Assembly: GCF_002775205.1 (NCBI RefSeq)
Contig: NC_036462.1
Coordinates: 27,469,084-27,533,083 of the forward strand
Reading direction: 5' to 3'
DNA: 64,000 nt
Origin: Xiphophorus maculatus
Taxonomy: Eukaryota; Chordata; Actinopteri; Cyprinodontiformes; Poeciliidae
In this document: one piece after another, positions 5,601 through 33,200 of the stretch
How positions within the stretch are numbered: the first letter of the stretch is position 1
How the letters are laid out: each line of letters starts with the position of its first letter
Position numbers and translations under genes: made by a program
Notes under the pieces: model-generated
What the model was told of the DNA's origin: nothing
Seen by the model: only the letters and a program-made list of their open reading frames with translations
Database searches by the model: none

Positions 5601-8600
5601 TTACTGCTGAGGTTTCATAGTTTTTCCACCTCTTCATGTCAAGCATCATCAGTTCTCAGTAGAGCAGCCTAAAAGTGATTTATAGTCAGTCTTCAGCTTC
5701 TAGCAGCAAAACTGAAGAATCTTAACCCACTGATGATGGTCAAAACCGTCTGGACAATATTAAATATTCTATAGTTTGAATGTTGCAAACCCAGATTTTC
5801 AATGAAGCAAGTCAGGGAACTATGATCAGTTCCTCCGAGATGTTGAGATGTTTTTTGTAATTGTTGCGGCACCTTCTTCAAAAATTTGCAGTCGAAGTTG
5901 CAAATTGTTTAAGTTTTATTTTTGCCATAATTACAAAAAACTTTAAATTGTTGCGCATAACCTTCCAAAAAAAGACATGATTTTAACAGTTAATATTTAA
6001 TATACAAATAACATTTTCAAGTACATTCTTGAAATAGCGCCCTTAGTACAAAAAAAGAAATCTTGTTCGGATGGGGGAGCCAAAGTCCAAAAGAAGACTT
6101 CAGGTTATGATGAATTGTATAAGCAAATCCTAAAGAACATCTCAAAATGGTTTTGGGTGAAAAAAATTAATTAATTAAATGTTACAATTTTCATCTTGGG
6201 ATTATTGAATATCCAGTGAAGTCCAAGTTTCAGCTTCTTCTCAGAGAGACTGACTTAAGTGAATGAAAGTAGGACTCAGTGTTAAAATTAGAACAAATAT
6301 TTGTAATGTTAAATTTGTTTTCCTATTTAAACTTTTCTCATTAAAATTGTTTGCTGTGTATTGGAATCACCTAAAGAAATTTTAATTCTATAAATAAATA
6401 TGATTACAAAGAGATGACTTTTATTGCCATAAATAAGTGTTCATGCTTATTGAACTTTTCCCCATTTTGTCACATTAGAACCAGAAGCATACATGTATTT
6501 CATTGGCCTTTTTGTGTAGAAGACCAACACAAAACAGGAAACCTGAAGTGGAAGGAATAGCATAGACGGTTTTCAAAATATTTTGACTTCATTAAAAAGC
6601 AGAAGTATGGTGCGCTTTTGTTTTCAGTAACACAAAGATGCTCCAAATTGTATCTCAAAAAAAATTGAACCATCTATTTTCCTTTTATTTCACAATCATT
6701 CACTACTTTGTGCTGGTCACGTAAAATTCCAATGAAATACAAGTTGACGGTTGTAAGGTGACCAAACTATGAAGAATTCAACCCCACAAACCTCTATACT
6801 ATTGGTACTTTTGGAAGGTACTGTACCTTGGTTTTACCAGATGCAGGAGGCCCCACCAGCATTAGACCGTGTCTCACCACAGTGGTCTGATACAACTGAA
6901 TGCATTTGTTGATATACCCTGAAATGACCACAGTGCTGTTACAGACTCGCTCCAAAAAGACAGGACGATCCTTGGAATTTTTGCCAATCGAGACACGAAC
7001 CAAACTCATCTTTGAGGTTCTTTGCTTTGCAGATATCATGCAAGGACTCCTCTAGAACGACATAACCCATGGGCTTTTGTGGTTTCTCATGGAAAAGATC
7101 CATGAGAATGGCATTAACGAGTTCCAGGTCGTTCTGTGAAAACTGTGGTATGCTTATTTCGTGGATGGCCTGAAGGCAGATTGACCCCTGATAACAGAAA
7201 TATTAAGGACAGTCAGAATCTTAGTTCATGGCGAACTAGAGCTACACAAAAGAAAAAAACAAACCTCATTAATGTCGGGGTTGTCTCTCCTCAGATGTCC
7301 AGCTACAGAGATCACAGCCTTCACAGCTCTTATGTCAAAGTAATAGTGGTCCTTCGAAATAAATCCAAAATGAATTTTAATTTATTTCATAGTTGAAACA
7401 AAATAATGAAAATGATATAAATTCATATCTTTTCGAAACTCAAACCTGAGACGCTAGCTGATCAAATAAGAGCCTGAAAAACGTATGAATCTTCTTGGAG
7501 AGGGCATTGGCATTCGAAAAGCCTAACGAATACAAGGAGATCTCCGCAACCATATCATATTCAGGGATCACCATGGATACGGGGCGGAACAGTTTCTGCA
7601 GGGAATGTCAAGTTATTTGTTGGATCCAACGTACTTTTTCTCAGTGATACATAGTTATTTTTATTTCAATCATGATTACACACCTTCAGATTGGCAGGTA
7701 TTTTATTGCAAGGAGTGTGACCAAAGTTCATGGTAAAGAATATGGCACAGGAAGAGACTAAAGGAATCTCCATTCCGCCAAATACAAAATTCTCAGCCTA
7801 GAAAAAAAAACAACAGTCATTTTAGGGTTAGGGTTACTCAACAAGTACCACTGTTAAAGGTGTTACGTTAAACTCAACCCTAACCCTATCCTATTATTAA
7901 CCGAAAAACTAGCCAACAGATTAACTCTAAACTTTACTGATGTTTGTCAAGCAGAAACATCTTAACTTTTCACATGATGATGCAAGAAGCAATTTTTTTT
8001 AGCTGCAGATGCGTCCTTTGCTACAAATGATTGAATTAAGCATACACTAAGGGAATGCTGTTATTGAATTTTAGGAAATAAGATGTTTATCATTTTATTT
8101 TAAAAAACTAATCGAATCACTTGATTATTTGCATTATTAACAAATTTCTAATTTGGTATGAAATGAGCTCTAGTGTTTGTAATAAAAATCCGCAGAATGT
8201 GCCAATTTCTTTCATTCCATCAATCGATTTATCGTCAGAACAAATGGATAGAATTTTCTATTACTGAAATAATTGTTAGCTGCAGCTCTGAACGAGATAT
8301 GATTCTAACAGGAAGTAGAATGTAAATAATCAGGGCATTCGGTCTTTGCCTGTTGCTGTTGGGCCCTTTGTATTGTAGAGATCTGCTGTGCCACGACAGA
8401 GAGAACCTCCACCTGAACGCGAGCGATGTCATCCAAAATAGCCCAAGCACCCGAGCTGTAAAACAAAACAGATAACAAATCTCACGTGAGTGACGGCATG
8501 TGCCGTTCTTTTTCATCATACTCTTTCACACTAGCTCGCTTTTTTCTTTGTTTTTTCTCTTTTTACCTGGCTACCCCTTTAAGAAACCTTTCTACTGCGA

Positions 8601-11600
8601 AGGATTTGAGTTTATCGGAGCAGTTGAAAACCACGGTGTGCATGGCCAGAGCATTTCCGAGTTCTTTAATGGTTTCTGTTTTCCCTGAGCCTGTTGCGCC
8701 TATGACCCCGCCTCCCAGCTTGCGATGCAGCGCTCCTGTAAGGCCGAGGTAGCATCTAGAAGAGCCAGAAGCTGGGTTTCAGTGGTTGCGCTGTGTAACA
8801 AGCAGAGTGCATCGGTAAAAACCATCCAATTCGAGCACTACCTGTTAGTGAGTGGGGTGATCACCATTCGACTAGAGTTGCCAAGATATTCATATCCATA
8901 TAAGAACTCTGCGTTCATTACATGGATGTGCAGCTCCTCATTTGTCCAGTAATATCTGCAAATAAATATAGTAGTCAAATAAATTCTACACAACAATGTC
9001 AAGTGGTAAAAGTGTGTTTGTAAAGTAAAGCAAACCTAAGCTGGCTGATCCACTCAAAGTCGTTGATGGTTGAAACTTTCTGCTCCACCAGTTTGGAAAC
9101 GACATCTTTTGCGTGGACTTCTATCACAATGAGGGACGACAGAACGGCCTGCTGCATCTTAGAGACATCTCCCCTCATTAGCTGCACTAAGTCAACAAGC
9201 TACATAAGCAAAACGATAAAAAGGTCAGAAATAGTCAAATCAAGTCTGCACGATGTTCAGAAGAGCAGTTCATTAAAAGTAATGTAAACTTAAATCAACA
9301 AATTGCGGCTAATCAAACTGGTATGTGGGTTTAGTGCGAGTGAACCTGATTCTGTAGTAGAGGAAGAACTTTATGCAAGAGTCTCTTCTCCAAAGTGGTA
9401 GACACCTCAGCAGTCCAGAAAACCAGAAAGCTAGCAATCGCCACTTGACCAGGGTATGAAAACACCCACTCAACATGTGGTTGCTATGCAGGGAGAGGGT
9501 GAATATGAAGCTTTTAAAAGTGCTTCAGTAAAACTAAAATATCTTGTGAGACACAACAACAAACAAATCAATCAACTTACCTCAGAATAATCTTGGAGAG
9601 CACTTTCAATGCCATCTCTCAAAGTGGTCTTCATGGACTTTTCTAAGTCCCTCAGCCAGTTGTCCACTTTCCCAGCTGCTGATACTGGCAGTGAGAGTTG
9701 GACTTTTTCTTCTTCTTTAGAGTACATATGCGTTATCTGTAGGTCTGACTCAAACTGCAGCTAAAGGCAAACGGAAAACTTAGTCACTAATCTTTTTCTT
9801 CGGTTGTTGTGGAGTACTTAGAGAATCGAGCCAAAGCAAACCTGTGAGATGTTCTCAAAGCATTTGTGCAGTTGTAGTTGTATAGCAGTGGGATCTTTGG
9901 ACTGGGATAAAATCTGCAGAAGCTCAACATCTGACAGGAAGAAATACCTACATACAAAAGTTATGCACAATGCAAACAGAATGATTAGCAGTCAGTATTG
10001 ATAATAAAGTGCAGCATTATGTGAATGCTTTGTTATGACGGAAAGCAATTCTATGAAGTTATTCTCAAGCTCAAGGCATGGATGAATACAAATGCATGTC
10101 ACACTATTTAGATTTATACATCAATAAAAATTGAGATGTATTTTTTCCTCCTTAGCCAAAGCTTTGTCTTGGCCTATACCTGATAATCCTCACAAAATTC
10201 ACCAAAGTTTCTTATTGTAATGTGACAAAATGCTTGCAAAAGTGTGGACAAAAATTACATATATGAAAACAGGTGGTTTAACCTTTAAATGTAAAAAACA
10301 TTTTGAGATGTTCTGTACTGTATATGCAGTTCAAGTTAACTTCAATGACCAATCTGAAATTATGTTTTTGCAGTTTGACCCCACTTCAAGACATCATTTT
10401 ATTTGTATTAAGTGTACTATTCAGGAAGGTACTTTAAAAATCTTATTTGCACTTTAAATATTAACTATGTTAAAATCTTGTCTTCTTTGACAACCAGCAA
10501 TTTGAACTTTCTTGTAAGATCATCTTATGGCAAAAATACAGCATGAAAATTATTTGCAACTCTGACCGTAACTTTATGAAAAAGATGCTGCAAAATCAGT
10601 AATTTTAGGCTGCAACAATCACAAAACATAACATTACAACATCCTGGAAGGACTGACTTATTATGACCAGAAAGAGTTGGGTGCCTCTCCATTTTGATGA
10701 TTTCTTACCTTGGAAAAGAATTTCGTTTTTCCTCCAAGTATTTTTTGAGTCCTTTCTGAGCACTTTGCAAAAACATGTTGTAGCGCTTCAGTTTACTTAG
10801 GAGCTGAACATTTTGGCACATTTCAATCACCTAAAAATAAACACATACATGTTGTCCATTATTAACACTGGTGCTAAGTTGGTGTATTACACGTTTTAGC
10901 TGTGCATTCAAAAAAGGCAAAACATAAAAGTTCAAACATTTTGCTCTCTGTCGACATTGCTCATGACGCTTCTCCAGCGCTGCTCTATGTGCTTGTACGT
11001 ATTTCCTTGCTTGAGCTTATGCTTGACCTCATCGCAGCTAAAGATGGGTTCCAATGTCAACCAAGCACACTGGCATTCCAGCCACTCTTCCAGCACATCC
11101 TGGATTCAAATATGAAAAGGAAAAGGCAGCAATAAAAAAAGATGAGACAGAGGAAAAATATTATGAACCTAATATTTGGTTTTGTTTGTACTTGAGTTAG
11201 CCTGAGCTTTTTCTCCCAGGTGTTGAGGCGGCTCTCAAAGACTTTTTTGACCGGGGACAAGGACAGGTTCTGAGTTTTGGCAATATGGTCATCCAGCCTC
11301 TGGAATATTTCATCTGGGACCTTTAGGATGGATTGTTCAGCCTCCTTGTCGAAAAGCGAATCAAATTCAACTGTCGCCCACTCCTCTTCCATCATTTCCA
11401 GAGCCTAGAGGAAAAGGCGGAGAAAGAGGGGCAACTTCAGTAAAGATATCCCTAGACAGACTAGGAGTTAATATGTAGCTTCTTTGGTAATGTGCACAAC
11501 AATGAAAAATAATTTAAGTTTTAGCAATGGGTCCAATAAAAATGAGCAATCTGACAACAATTTATAGACATTACCTAACAAAGACCTTATGGATCACTAT

Positions 11601-17600: not shown

Positions 17601-20600
17601 TACATGTTGATTAAAAAAAAGGATCTTACTGTTTTCTGGTATACACTTAGGATCTTTTTGTGGCAATATTATGTCTGAAAACTCCTCTGAGTAGGTCATC
17701 ACAGTATTGTCAAACACCATGCGGTTCATAACACGGTCATATTCCAGCTTGGCCTGGTTCTCCAAGTTTTTTATACAACTCTCAAATCTGCACATGAAAA
17801 CAGAGACTTCTTTTACCCTTTTCTGGGTTCTGCTTTTGATTGATCTGTCATAAAAGCATTGCAAACAGGCAACAACGAAGGGACTGACTAGGAATGACAT
17901 TACTCACAATTTCCCCTTAAAGCCGCAAGCAGACTTTACAAGTTCCTTGATCCGTTGCAGACTGGCATGACTGAGGGACGGATTTGCCTCCCAGATGGGC
18001 ATGCAGTCTACAGACGTGCTGTACAGGAGTTGAATTTCTCCGTCCTTTCTCAAACGAAGAGCAGACTCGATTCGGTCTGCAAAGATTCGAGGATCCTCGG
18101 CTTTGAACAACAGCCTGATCCTCGGGATCCAGTGCTTGGTGCCTCCATACAAAATGGTCAAGTCTGTGGCAAAGTGGTTAGTTTATCAAAAACTAAAAAC
18201 CAAAAAAAAAAAAAAACATACAGCTGTAGTCAGATGTTTTCATATACTGTATATAAAGCCCTGTATTCATCACTCTGACATTAAATAAAACTAAATATTT
18301 CCTATTTTAGGTCAGATGGGATTGCTAAAATTATTGCTGTTTACTCACTGACAGAATTAAAAGCGAGAGAATTGTTAAGATTTTTTTTTCTGTCAAATTC
18401 TAAAGATTAGATTCATTTCATTACTAATTTGTGCAATTGTCAGTTTTTAACTATGTGACTTGTGGGATATGTTTTCACAACAGTTTGGTAGGATTTTGCC
18501 CATTTATCCAGTCAGAACTGGTTTTGGCTGAGTCAAGTTTGTTATCTGACTTCCTAGCACACAATTTTTTACCTATGCTTACGTTTTCCTTTTCTTTTTT
18601 TTTTGTAATAAAATTAGGGTTTTCTGATGGCCACTCCAATACATTGCCTTTGTTTCCCTTAAGTAACCTTGTTTTGGGGAATCCTTAACAGTAGTTGTCC
18701 ATGAAGACATTTTTTTTATTTTCCTTATGATGCCATTTATATAACCAGTCCCTTCTGCTGCAAATCAACATACTGTTACTCCCGTACCTCGCAGTGGGAA
18801 TGATGTTCTCAGGATTGCAGGCCTCCTCCTTTTTCTTCCAAATGAACAATGGTCATTATGGCCACACAATTTAATTTCAGTTTCATGACAAAAAAACAGA
18901 AAAATGTCCCCAAAAATTAAGTTCTTTGTTCCTGAGTGCTGTTGCAAACAATCTGCCTTTAATGTTACTTTTGGCTTCATTAGCTCTAAGTATTTCTTCT
19001 GCTCTTGTTAATGCAAGACCCGTTACCCTGGATAGGGACTTTCTCTTATTAGCACCAGCAGCATATGCACAAGGTCCTTTGCTTTTGCTCAAATTTATAT
19101 ACGCATATTTTGCACCAAGACATGAAATGTTTAAATCAAGTTTATTTGACATTTGTAAGATAAAAACACAAAAATTAAAGAGTAGACTTGAGTTAGAGGA
19201 CCTCAGTGATCTGAATTGTTCTTCAGGTGATAGAAGGCTGAATTTATTATTGTCTTTATGTGTCGCTGAAGGTTAAAGTCTAGCTTCATCGCTACAACCA
19301 GATTTCGGGCCTTATTAGGAAGATCCTAGCTGAAATAAAGGAAGCTGTAGCTGAAATAAAGGAAGCTGTACAAGAACTCTTGATTGTTCTTCTTTACGTC
19401 CAAAGATAACTTCAGTTTTGTTTCTGTCTGTCTGAAAAACGTTATGGCACATCTACGCTTTGATTTGATCTACACAACAACTCCACGCATGGATGCAGAA
19501 CCGTGTGTCATCTGCGTAGTTATATTAACTAATCTTATTATAATCTCAGCTAGCAGGAGAATGTGTATATTAAAAAAGGAGGGCTGCAGAACCTTGGGGT
19601 ATCCCATATGTGACTTCTGTCCGCTCTGATGAAAAGCTACCTACTCACACAAAGAGTCCCTGTTGTTTAGGTAAGACTCTTCTGACTCTGATTAGCCAGA
19701 CAGTGTGAACAAAAGATTGTGTTTATGCAAATATCTCCTGTCAAAAATATATCAAGTACTGTCACTACGCTACACAAGAAAACAAACAAATCAAATGACT
19801 TACTTTTCTTGTGTCTTTTTTTAACAGGTTCAACTTCCTCATCTTCCTGAGGGCTGTCTTCGAGCAAGTTCTCCTCCTCTTTCTCCTCCTCCTCATGTTC
19901 CTCCTCGTGTTCCTCCTCGTGTTCCTCCTCATGTTCCTCCTCATGTTCCTTCTCCTCCTCTTCCTTTTCCTCCTTAAGAACCTCCTCCACTAAGTACTGA
20001 CATTTTTCCGCAGAATAGTCAAGAACCCCAACTAAATGCCATTTGTACTCAGGGTATGAACTTTCTGAATCACGTTGGAAAAAAGACAAAGACACAAATT
20101 GTGACTAAAACTATATAAAAAATCTATTAATTTATATTGTAGAGAAATAATTTTACACCAAAGACAATGTAATCACCAGTAAGCAGCAAGGCCAATGCAG
20201 GAATAGGCTTTCGATTACACCATCCTTTGATTCTGCCCAGAGAGAGCCAGCTTTCTGGTGTCCGGCATTCGAAATCATCATTGTCAAATATCTCATAAAA
20301 TGCAAAAAAAAATACAAAACCCAGATCAAATAAAAAGAACAAGGGGGATGTGGGCATTTTGAAAAACGCAATACATATACAGTATGTGAGATGGTTGCCA
20401 TAGAAGTAGCAGCAGCAACATTATATTTACCTCAAGTGGCAGAAAGGGTGATACCAGCTTGTATGACTTAGGAACAGAATCATCCTGCTTGTCTGGCTTT
20501 ACTGGCATCAAGTTGTTAGACCTTATGCCTTTTGCTGCCAGGAGTTGAAGTAAGTCTAAAATCAAGTATCCTCTACGGAGTCTGTTAACAGAAATAAAAA

Positions 20601-30260: not shown

Positions 30261-33200
30261 ATGACGGTGGTTTACGTGCTGGGCAGAGGAGGGCAGAGCA
30301 TGCTGGTGGCGCTCGGATGGCTTCTCTTAATCGGGACGCGCAGCGGAGCAGGTGAGGAGCGCCCGTGTGTTTGTTGCGCCGATGCTGTTCATCAGTTCCT
30401 TCTTTCCCAGGAGAGAAACTAAAAGCCATCACGCTGCAGTCATACAGCTTGCTGATAAATCGGACCTCTTTCCATTCAATGGAACCTGAGAAACCCTTGA
30501 TGCTGTCACTGAGTGAGCAGCAGCAGTGATGTCATGGTCATTCAGATTAATAATTCATGGAGAACACGAAGAGGTTGACTTTGGGTTTTTTGTCCATGAT
30601 GTCAGCAGAGAAAAGCACCTAATTTCACTGAGGGAATGTTAGTCTACTGACACGCTAAGCATTTTGTGTGAATTCTATCAGCACCTTCTTCCACATGTAC
30701 GCTGTGTTGACAGCGAGTAAGAGGTCAATATGACTTACCTTCAGCAATGGCTGTCATCTTGTACCTCTTTACTTTTTTTTTTCTTCAGTTGCGCTGGGTT
30801 CTATTTACAGGGATTAGTGTAAAGGGGGCAGAAAACAAATGTTCAAAACACATAGATACTTTTTGCAAAAGCATGTGGACAGTCGTGCATCACTTTCTTC
30901 CAGTTTATGTGGTTTCTGTCGTTTTCCCGTTGCTTTTTGTTGGTCTGCCACATAAAATCCCTATTAAGTACTCTGAGGTTTGTGGTTATAACATGACGCA
31001 AGTGGAAAACCACAACTGGTTCAAATACTTTTGCAAGGCATTGTATTGCCCAGTTTGTCTTTTCACCAACTCGTTCACACTCTGTTTGTTGCAGCTTCTA
31101 GATGTGTAAACCAAGCCTGCAGTCCACCCATCGGGAATCTGGCTAGCGGCCGGGGACTTCTAACCCGGACAAACTGCTGTGCCAACCATTTCCAAAGTTT
31201 GTGCCCCCATCCTCCAGAGAACCCCCGCTCATGCCAAGAAGACACTCATCCTCCTTCTCTGATGACCGACGACCCGTTTTTGCATCCGGACACCTGGTGG
31301 GCATCGAGAGGAGGCGACATGGAGCAGGACGAGATCCGGTTGGATCTGGAGACAAAGTTCTGTCTGTCTCATGTAGTTTTGGTCTTCAGATCTCCCAGAC
31401 CTGCTGCCATGGTCATTGAGCGCTCCGCTGATTTTGGAAAGACCTGGGAGGCTCTCAGGGTGTTTTCTCACAACTGCAGGGTGGAATTTAACTTGGACGA
31501 TGACCTCAGAGGGCCGGGCTCGCTGTGCACGTCCCGGTATTCTAGTCCTCTCCCTTGTAGCGGTGGGGAGGTAAAGAAGTTTGCACAAAGATGTAAAGCA
31601 TTTTCATAACACCCAACCAGTGTTATTTACCTCTCTCCTTCCCTCTCTACTAGGTAATCGTACGTACTCTGGATCCAAGAAGTGGAAAAACCTTTGACCC
31701 CTACAGTCCAGAGGCCCTTGTCCGCCTTACCATCACAAATCTCCGCATCAGACTACTGAAAGCTCAGACTTGTCCTGCATCTGTGAACTCCTCTGCAACA
31801 TGGACAAACCCCACAGCCACTTCAGAAAGCCCACCCTCAGCACCATTTGCCATTTCCACATTGCTGGCCAGAGGGACATGCCTGTGCCATGGGCATGCCG
31901 AATATTGCTTACCACATAAAATCAGTGAAGACAAAAGACAAGATAGTGACATGGTAAGTGGTGAGTCTTGCATTTGTGTCAGACGAGAAGCTAAAACATA
32001 AAAAAGTGTCTGATGGTTGTTGTAATGTCTGTTCCTTTTGATGGATGTTAAATCTAACAGGAAAAGGTGATTCTTATGAATTAACTGACTTATGAAGATA
32101 AACTCATATATGGCTTTCTTATATGGCATGTTCTCTTTCTTCCTCATTTTAAAGAGTGGGCCTTTGTTACATTTAAACTCATGGGAGACAGTAAAAATAA
32201 TTTTTAAAAAAGATTTTCAAGTTTAGTCAATGTGAAGAATAGCTTCTGCAATAACGGTACATTTACCTTTAAGGCTTTTCACAAAATTACCAGAGGAGCT
32301 GATAAATGCAAAGACAGATTATTTTTGATATTTTGTGCATTTTTGTTCTTTTTCTTGTGCTTGCTTTGTAGTGTACAGTTGGGTGTTTCCAAAAGTACCT
32401 GTTGATAAATGGCTCATCATTAACACTTTCAACTCTTGAACCTTAAACGTTTTTAAGATCAAGTGTGTGTAACAATTAACTGATGTTGGATAAAGAGACT
32501 GAGCAGCATCTCATCTAGGTATTTGGAAAGTGTCTCTGCGTCCATCACACTGATGGGGATCACTGTGAGAGGTGTGCCCCGCTGTATAACAATCGGCCCT
32601 GGAGGCCCGCCAATGGCAGCAGTGGTGAGCCGAACCCATGTCAGAGTAAGTGATCAATAATGGACTGTGTTATCTGACCATTTTAGTCTCAGAGTCCTTT
32701 GTTTCTGTCACTTCTCCGAGTTTTTGTTTATGACCAGTCAATTTCCCTCCTTGCCTCTCTACCACCTATGATGACCTCCCCACCCCTCTGTTTTTGAAGA
32801 GTGTGAGTGCCATGGCCATGCAGAGAGCTGTCACTTCTCTCTCCGGGCGTGGATCTCCACGGATGGAGTCAGCGGAGGTGTCTGTAACGACTGTCAGCAT
32901 AACACTGAGGGCCGCAGGTGTCAGCGCTGCCGTCACGGTTACTATCGCCACCGGCCCATGCCCCTTAAGTCTCCCTACGCCTGCACACGTAAGAGTCTAT
33001 TGATCACGAGTTAATAAGAATTTAGGGTTATTACATTATGACCTTGTAATCATGGTTTTACTGATTTAATGACCGTCCCCTCATTCATGGATGGATGGAC
33101 GATTGGCTGGATAGATGGTTGGTTTGTTGGATCGACAGATTAATTTACAGATGGATGATTTGTTGGATGGATCCATCTGCCTCCGTCATTGTGTCCTTGG

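Follow-up and report, generated by a model that had tools for sequence, protein, structure and literature searches.

Can an axonemal dynein heavy chain lose conserved catalytic residues of AAA1, the principal dynein site of ATP hydrolysis (PMC7215579), while its reading frame stays open? The question is raised by dnah1 of Xiphophorus maculatus, part of which lies in a stretch of 64,000 nucleotides of contig NC_036462.1 (positions 27,469,084 to 27,533,083; contig C20 below), referred to here as the window. An initial annotation of the window described a DNAH1-type chain whose AAA1 site is dismantled in an intact frame, and suggested that the gene might be a paralogue, with canonical DNAH1 function supplied elsewhere. 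We found that the altered motifs and the open frame stand, and we favor another explanation for them: the gene, apparently present in a single copy, may encode an inner-arm dynein d chain that binds nucleotide at AAA1 and turns it over poorly, giving a slow, load-bearing or regulatory arm. We put the probability of this reading at roughly one half.

The AAA1 motifs of dnah1 lie on the minus strand in three exons between 7684 and 8755. The exon with Walker A (8567–8755, read directly and by spliced alignment, with a GT donor and an AG acceptor) carries the P-loop GATGSGKTET at 8671–8700, where GPAGTGKTE is found elsewhere. The exon with Walker B (8350–8455, placed by spliced alignment and followed by a GC donor, CAG/GCAAAG) carries AILDDIARV at 8416–8442 in place of the ACFDEFNRI of the aligned DNAH1 sequence (the DNAH1 row), so the catalytic Glu is an Asp. 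The exon with sensor 1 (7684–7797; the aligner starts it at 7791, and the AG after a T-run in the sequence gives 7797) carries the loop MNFGHTPCNKIP at 7696–7731, where the DNAH1 row has MNPGYAGRTELP; the Asn is kept. A further exon placed by spliced alignment (7446–7595) encodes LFRPVSMV, whose Arg we take to be sensor 2 of AAA1. The motifs were read directly and by spliced alignment, with their coordinates counted by hand on the minus strand, and both Walker B and the NFGHTPC of the sensor loop read as in the initial annotation. That annotation had also called the P-loop kept: its G-K-T core is, whereas in GPAGT the P, A and T have been replaced. In total, dnah1 AAA1 retains the Walker A Gly, Lys and Thr (fitting GxxxxGK[TS]), the Walker B Asp, the sensor-1 Asn and the LFRP Arg. 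It has lost the Walker B Glu along with the Phe and Asn of DEFNR, leaving ILDD in place of the canonical Asp-Glu, and the Pro, Tyr, Gly and Arg of NPGYAGR. In dynein, the attacking water is held in position by the sensor-1 Asn and loses a proton to the Walker B Glu, and the sensor-1 loop touches AAA2 in the closed state (PMC4879348). Set beside these roles, the pattern of losses reads as one in which binding is kept and turnover and closure are hit. The four direct ligands (Lys, Thr, Asp and Asn) all survive, which has P = 0.039 if 13 losses among 25 motif positions fell at random, a figure chosen post hoc.

Thirteen further heavy-chain loci in the genome yielded the AAA1 region: 12 motor chains and a chain on contig C5 that is discussed at the end. 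All 12 motor chains have [AG]CFDEFNR at Walker B and NPGY.GR in the sensor loop, so that the near-invariance of DEFNRI in axonemal heavy chains, as the initial annotation put it, holds within this genome for every other motor chain examined. The P-loop GPAGTGKTE is present in 11 of the 12; the 5' exon of the remaining chain (C3b) was not recovered and its P-loop is unread. At 56 positions that are invariant in 11 chains and the DNAH1 row, dnah1 departs at 20, and leave-one-out counts for the 12 motor peers range from 0 to 5, the 5 belonging to the badly recovered C3b. Under a looser rule of invariance (at least nine known others), dnah1 departs at 16 of 51 positions and the peers again at 0–5. 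The departures of dnah1 are concentrated in the three motifs, with 13/25 positions changed inside them versus 7/31 outside (Fisher P = 0.028). Among the peers, motif departures number 0/25 for ten of the 12, 1/26 for the chain on C18 and 2/23 for the poorly recovered C3b.

Along the aligned chain, the sequence matches identify dnah1 as the DNAH1 orthologue, in agreement with the initial annotation. Consecutive portions of the chain were searched against PDB, and in eight of eight cases the top three matches were 8j07_g6, 9d2f_U and 9fqr_X1, the three chains that carry the name Dynein axonemal heavy chain 1; we take them to be human, mouse and bovine DNAH1. The part of the gene inside the window (1–20761, minus strand; spliced alignment to the DNAH1 rows, 43 of 74 pieces) holds the tail, linker, AAA1, AAA2 and the start of AAA3, and past position 1 the gene continues some 17.6 kb farther, reaching approximately C20:27451470. 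The alignment, which covers 9d2f_U from residue 152 through the C-terminus, shows the chain to have the domain set of tail, linker, AAA1–AAA6, stalk, microtubule-binding domain and C-terminus; residues before 152 and DNAH1 stretches that have no printed row (for example, approximately residues 2333–2539, the AAA3 end) fall outside the comparison. The 5' exons above 20761 are outside the alignment, and the gene start lies at 20.8 kb or farther upstream.

To follow the reading frame, we joined the printed DNAH1 rows and aligned them to the genomic DNA with GT/GC-AG introns free and with stops and frameshifts penalized rather than forbidden. The best spliced path comprises 74 pieces and 3691 codons, contains no stops and no frameshifts and ends at the normal C-terminus. 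The in-phase joining of exons reported earlier thus extends over all aligned codons, with the splice sites (GT/GC donors and AG acceptors) imposed by the aligner, under which an intron of at least 60 bp could in principle conceal a stop. The earlier count of 45 exons was not reproduced: of the 74 aligned pieces, 43 lie in the window and 31 outside it, and 4 are shorter than 30 bp and doubtful. When we mutated the dnah1 coding sequence at random without selection (20 runs per level), the mean number of stops was 4.5 at 0.01 substitutions per site (where at least one run had none), 9.7 at 0.02 (4.4% of residues changed; minimum 4 in 20 runs), 21.6 at 0.05 (10.5% changed) and 69.3 at 0.2 (35% changed). 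Because random mutation to about 10% changed residues already gives this mean of 21.6 stops and none is seen in dnah1, old simple decay appears unlikely, and to that extent the earlier argument against simple decay survives.

In PMC6008050, DNAH1 of zebrafish and of humans appears under inner-arm dynein d, and we propose the following for the chain at this position in X. maculatus. Its AAA1 would still bind ATP-Mg through the kept Walker A Gly, Lys and Thr, the Walker B Asp and the sensor-1 Asn. Hydrolysis would be slow or nil, because the water-activating Walker B Glu is now Asp and the sensor-1 loop, which swings in closing AAA1 against AAA2, has been rebuilt. Since the tail, stalk and microtubule-binding domain are retained, the chain, if expressed, could still be assembled as an arm into the axoneme and grip the next doublet. 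Such an arm would cycle slowly or rest in one nucleotide state, and other, canonical dyneins would drive bending.

Several observations weigh against this proposal. At Walker B of AAA3, the DNAH1 row itself reads DD (FFIDDLNMP), and a change of Glu to Asp alone is no proof of lost hydrolysis. The dnah1 chain is only 54% identical to the DNAH1 rows overall, so divergence is gene-wide and AAA1 is not necessarily singled out. With assumed domain boundaries, identity to the DNAH1 rows is 0.465 in the tail, 0.539 in the linker, 0.641–0.643 in AAA1, 0.559 in AAA2, 0.578 in the AAA3 part, 0.539 in AAA4, 0.579 in the microtubule-binding stretch (62/107) and 0.583 in AAA6 with the C-terminus (354/607). 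At 0.641, the AAA1 of dnah1 is farther from the DNAH1 row than are those of the loci that we name below as DNAH7 (0.744), DNAH12 (0.713) and DNAH3 (0.664), although its best PDB match is nonetheless DNAH1. The motifs of AAA4 are altered too, which fits general relaxation: Walker A reads GHCSGRKT and Walker B FFVEYQ, where the DNAH1 row has FLFSDTQ (L041, 9524–9724 and 8743–9018). As internal controls, dnah1 loses 2/16 invariant positions in AAA3 (8 peers lose 0–3 of 12–17, in rougher alignments) and 1/10 in the D6 region (12 peers lose 0–2 of 9–12). Pooled, these 3/26 differ from the 20/56 of AAA1 at P = 0.033, but the focus of departures on the AAA1 motifs is suggestive rather than firm, because the AAA3 control alone gives P = 0.12 and the looser AAA1 count against the pooled controls gives P = 0.09. 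As judged by these comparisons, dnah1 seems to have diverged both gene-wide and locally.

A last point on the same side is that the in-phase join of the Walker B and sensor exons needs the GC donor. Without GC donors, the AAA1 alignment needed an extra join and scored 664 instead of 714. GC donors were assigned to 5 of 73 dnah1 introns (at pieces 9, 28, 48, 62 and 71, with the reference missing at piece 9). For the AAA1 region of the 12 sister genes, the corresponding count was 2 of 55 introns, some of these 55 being spurious joins at poorly aligned ends. Because the same method gives GC donors in sister genes as well, we regard the one after the Walker B exon as uncommon but not odd, and with GT/GC-AG imposed by the aligner we make no claim of splice decay from these two ratios.

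Two other explanations carry weight, since the DNAH1 row itself has DD at the Walker B of AAA3. The first, which we hold to be possible but doubtful, is that dnah1 is a fast-evolving working motor in which the Walker B Asp and the new sensor-1 loop co-evolved and AAA1 still drives motility, perhaps at another speed. The retained Walker A core, Walker B Asp and sensor-1 Asn, the DD of AAA3, the frame that is open throughout and the gene-wide divergence would all be expected of such a motor. The concentration of departures in the AAA1 motifs would not, and the altered residues are seemingly not freely replaceable in a working AAA1, because 12/12 other motor chains keep DEFNR and NPGY.GR.

The second is relaxed selection toward loss, with dnah1 dispensable in a lineage of changed sperm or cilia and now in early decay. 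The AAA1 of dnah1 is identical to its PDB namesake at 136/210 positions, compared to 204/211 at the DNAH7 locus and 192/218 at the DNAH2 locus (two of the 12 peers were measured), and its key intron has the GC donor. Besides AAA4, the motifs of AAA2 and AAA3 are altered as well: on the minus strand and by spliced alignment, the AAA2 P-loop exon (6827–6918) reads GPPASGKT where the DNAH1 row has GPTGSGKS, the AAA3 P-loop exon (1666–1826) reads GPSGAGKT where it has GPTGTGKT, and the AAA3 Walker B exon (1262–1423) reads FFIDDLHMP. However, the invariant positions of AAA3 and D6 are mostly kept, and the 3691 codons without a stop or frameshift, in which the aligner could conceal a stop in an intron, compare with a mean of 9.7 stops, and at least 4, simulated at 0.02 substitutions per site. 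We consider early decay unlikely.

An artefact is very unlikely in our view, be it a misassembly, an error in joining exons or an overlooked alternative exon with canonical AAA1: the Walker B exon is in phase only with a GC donor, but the changes are spread over three exons and are substitutions of equal net length compared to the DNAH1 row, and neither the candidates scored in the AAA_6 scan nor those of the protein search included a canonical duplicate AAA1 exon on C20.

For copy number, we searched a genome of 704,300,149 bases in 101 sequences, with 24 contigs of about 15–35 Mb, among them C20 (32.9 Mb); six of the other 77 sequences were looked at, and each is smaller than 0.3 Mb. The scans rank the best-scoring candidates only. 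Among these, DHC_N2 gave 63 matches on 14 loci, AAA_6 gave 77 on 14 and Dynein_heavy gave 24 on 13. A protein search with the AAA1 of dnah1 gave 18 matches, two at its own gene (96–97%) and 16 elsewhere at 38–58% identity. Among the best-scoring candidates of the three profile scans and the protein search there was no second dnah1, and the gene is apparently single-copy. We compared four of the 13 other loci with PDB and named each after its best chain (C1 as DNAH12, C7 as DNAH7, C13 as DNAH3 and C14 as DNAH2); the AAA1 of the nine loci without such a name is 0.34–0.61 identical to the DNAH1 row, and none is DNAH1-like. Teleosts often retain duplicates, but the paralogue with a canonical dnah1 elsewhere that the initial annotation proposed is scarcely credible given the 14 heavy-chain loci of the two fullest scans, the off-gene AAA1 matches of low identity and the finding that, among C1, C7, C13 and C14, DNAH1 chains match best the DNAH7 fragment; it is contradicted unless the copy sits in an assembly gap or below the candidate list. 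The same comparisons recognized no DNAH6-type chain, the PDB DNAH6 chains matching best the DNAH7 fragment among only four of the 13 other loci tried, and loss of DNAH6 from the genome is only a question.

If dnah1 does encode a chain that binds nucleotide and turns it over poorly, a further step would be that selection has turned it into a motor pseudoenzyme, clamped by nucleotide and serving as brake or spacer in the dynein d position of sperm; we offer this tentatively and think it rather improbable. Literature searches, which covered titles and the starts of abstracts, turned up no natural AAA1 Walker B loss in DNAH1. An apparently single-copy DNAH1 that keeps its frame open while lacking the catalytic Glu and the ordinary sensor loop would amount to a natural experiment, testable in a living vertebrate, that asks which arms need force and which need merely be present. 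If the changes extend across a clade, they would mark a changed beat of sperm or cilia. Human DNAH1 defects harm the sperm tail. Altered sperm centrioles are described in internally fertilizing fish (PMC8909020), and X. maculatus is a livebearer, which we note as a lead only.

Elsewhere in the window, the linker exons of dnah1 were placed by spliced alignment at 9036–11404 on the minus strand, with 174/323 positions identical to the DNAH1 row. An apparent frameshift at 6940–7080 (a jump from KNLKDE to GYINKC) was rejected, being resolved by a short GT-AG intron. Nearer the 5' end of the aligned part, a glutamate-rich run (about KEEEEKEHEEEHEEEHEEEHEEEHEEEEKEEE) at 19667–19982 is in frame after the donor placed at 19982, and may be an intron or a lineage-specific insertion. 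Neighboring frames at 31000–61000 encode laminin N-terminal, CHCH and inositol polyphosphate kinase domains, and these neighbors are presumably lamb/ntn, chchd4 and ip6k. Rfam gave nothing in the window at gathering thresholds.

Among known systems, the nearest is DNAH1 itself (inner-arm dynein d; DHC2 in Chlamydomonas), to which dnah1 appears orthologous along the aligned chain. The DNAH1 rows read GPAGTGKTET, ACFDEFNRI and the canonical sensor loop given above, and the window gene is altered in all three. The chain on C5 (G000:C5:26477045-26479315; L034, L043), which we take to be DNHD1-like (dnhd1), is likewise a heavy chain with a degenerate AAA1 and an open frame, here one long frame of 1055 codons. 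It is degenerate in all three AAA1 motifs, with neither the P-loop Lys nor DEFNR, and departs at 29/53 invariant positions, whereas dnah1 keeps the Lys and the nucleotide-binding core and departs at 20/56. A farther P-loop of the C5 chain, GPSGSGKTT, is intact. A paper on human DNHD1 mentions an ATP-binding site (PMC9916431), so DNHD1 need not have lost ATP binding. DNAH12 is described as lacking the microtubule-binding domain and yet being needed in sperm (PMC11949491), and so resembles the arm proposed here as an inner-arm chain in use despite losing a part needed for motor work. The two differ in what is missing: the DNAH12 locus on C1 has a canonical AAA1, whereas in dnah1 it is AAA1 that has lost residues and the microtubule-binding stretch that remains. 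Finally, engineered dynein mutants in which the AAA1 Walker B Glu is changed to Gln are reported to be deficient in ATP hydrolysis (PMC4879348). In these mutants, as in dnah1, the catalytic Glu of AAA1 is replaced; dnah1 differs in that the change is natural, is from Glu to Asp and is accompanied by a rebuilt sensor-1 loop.

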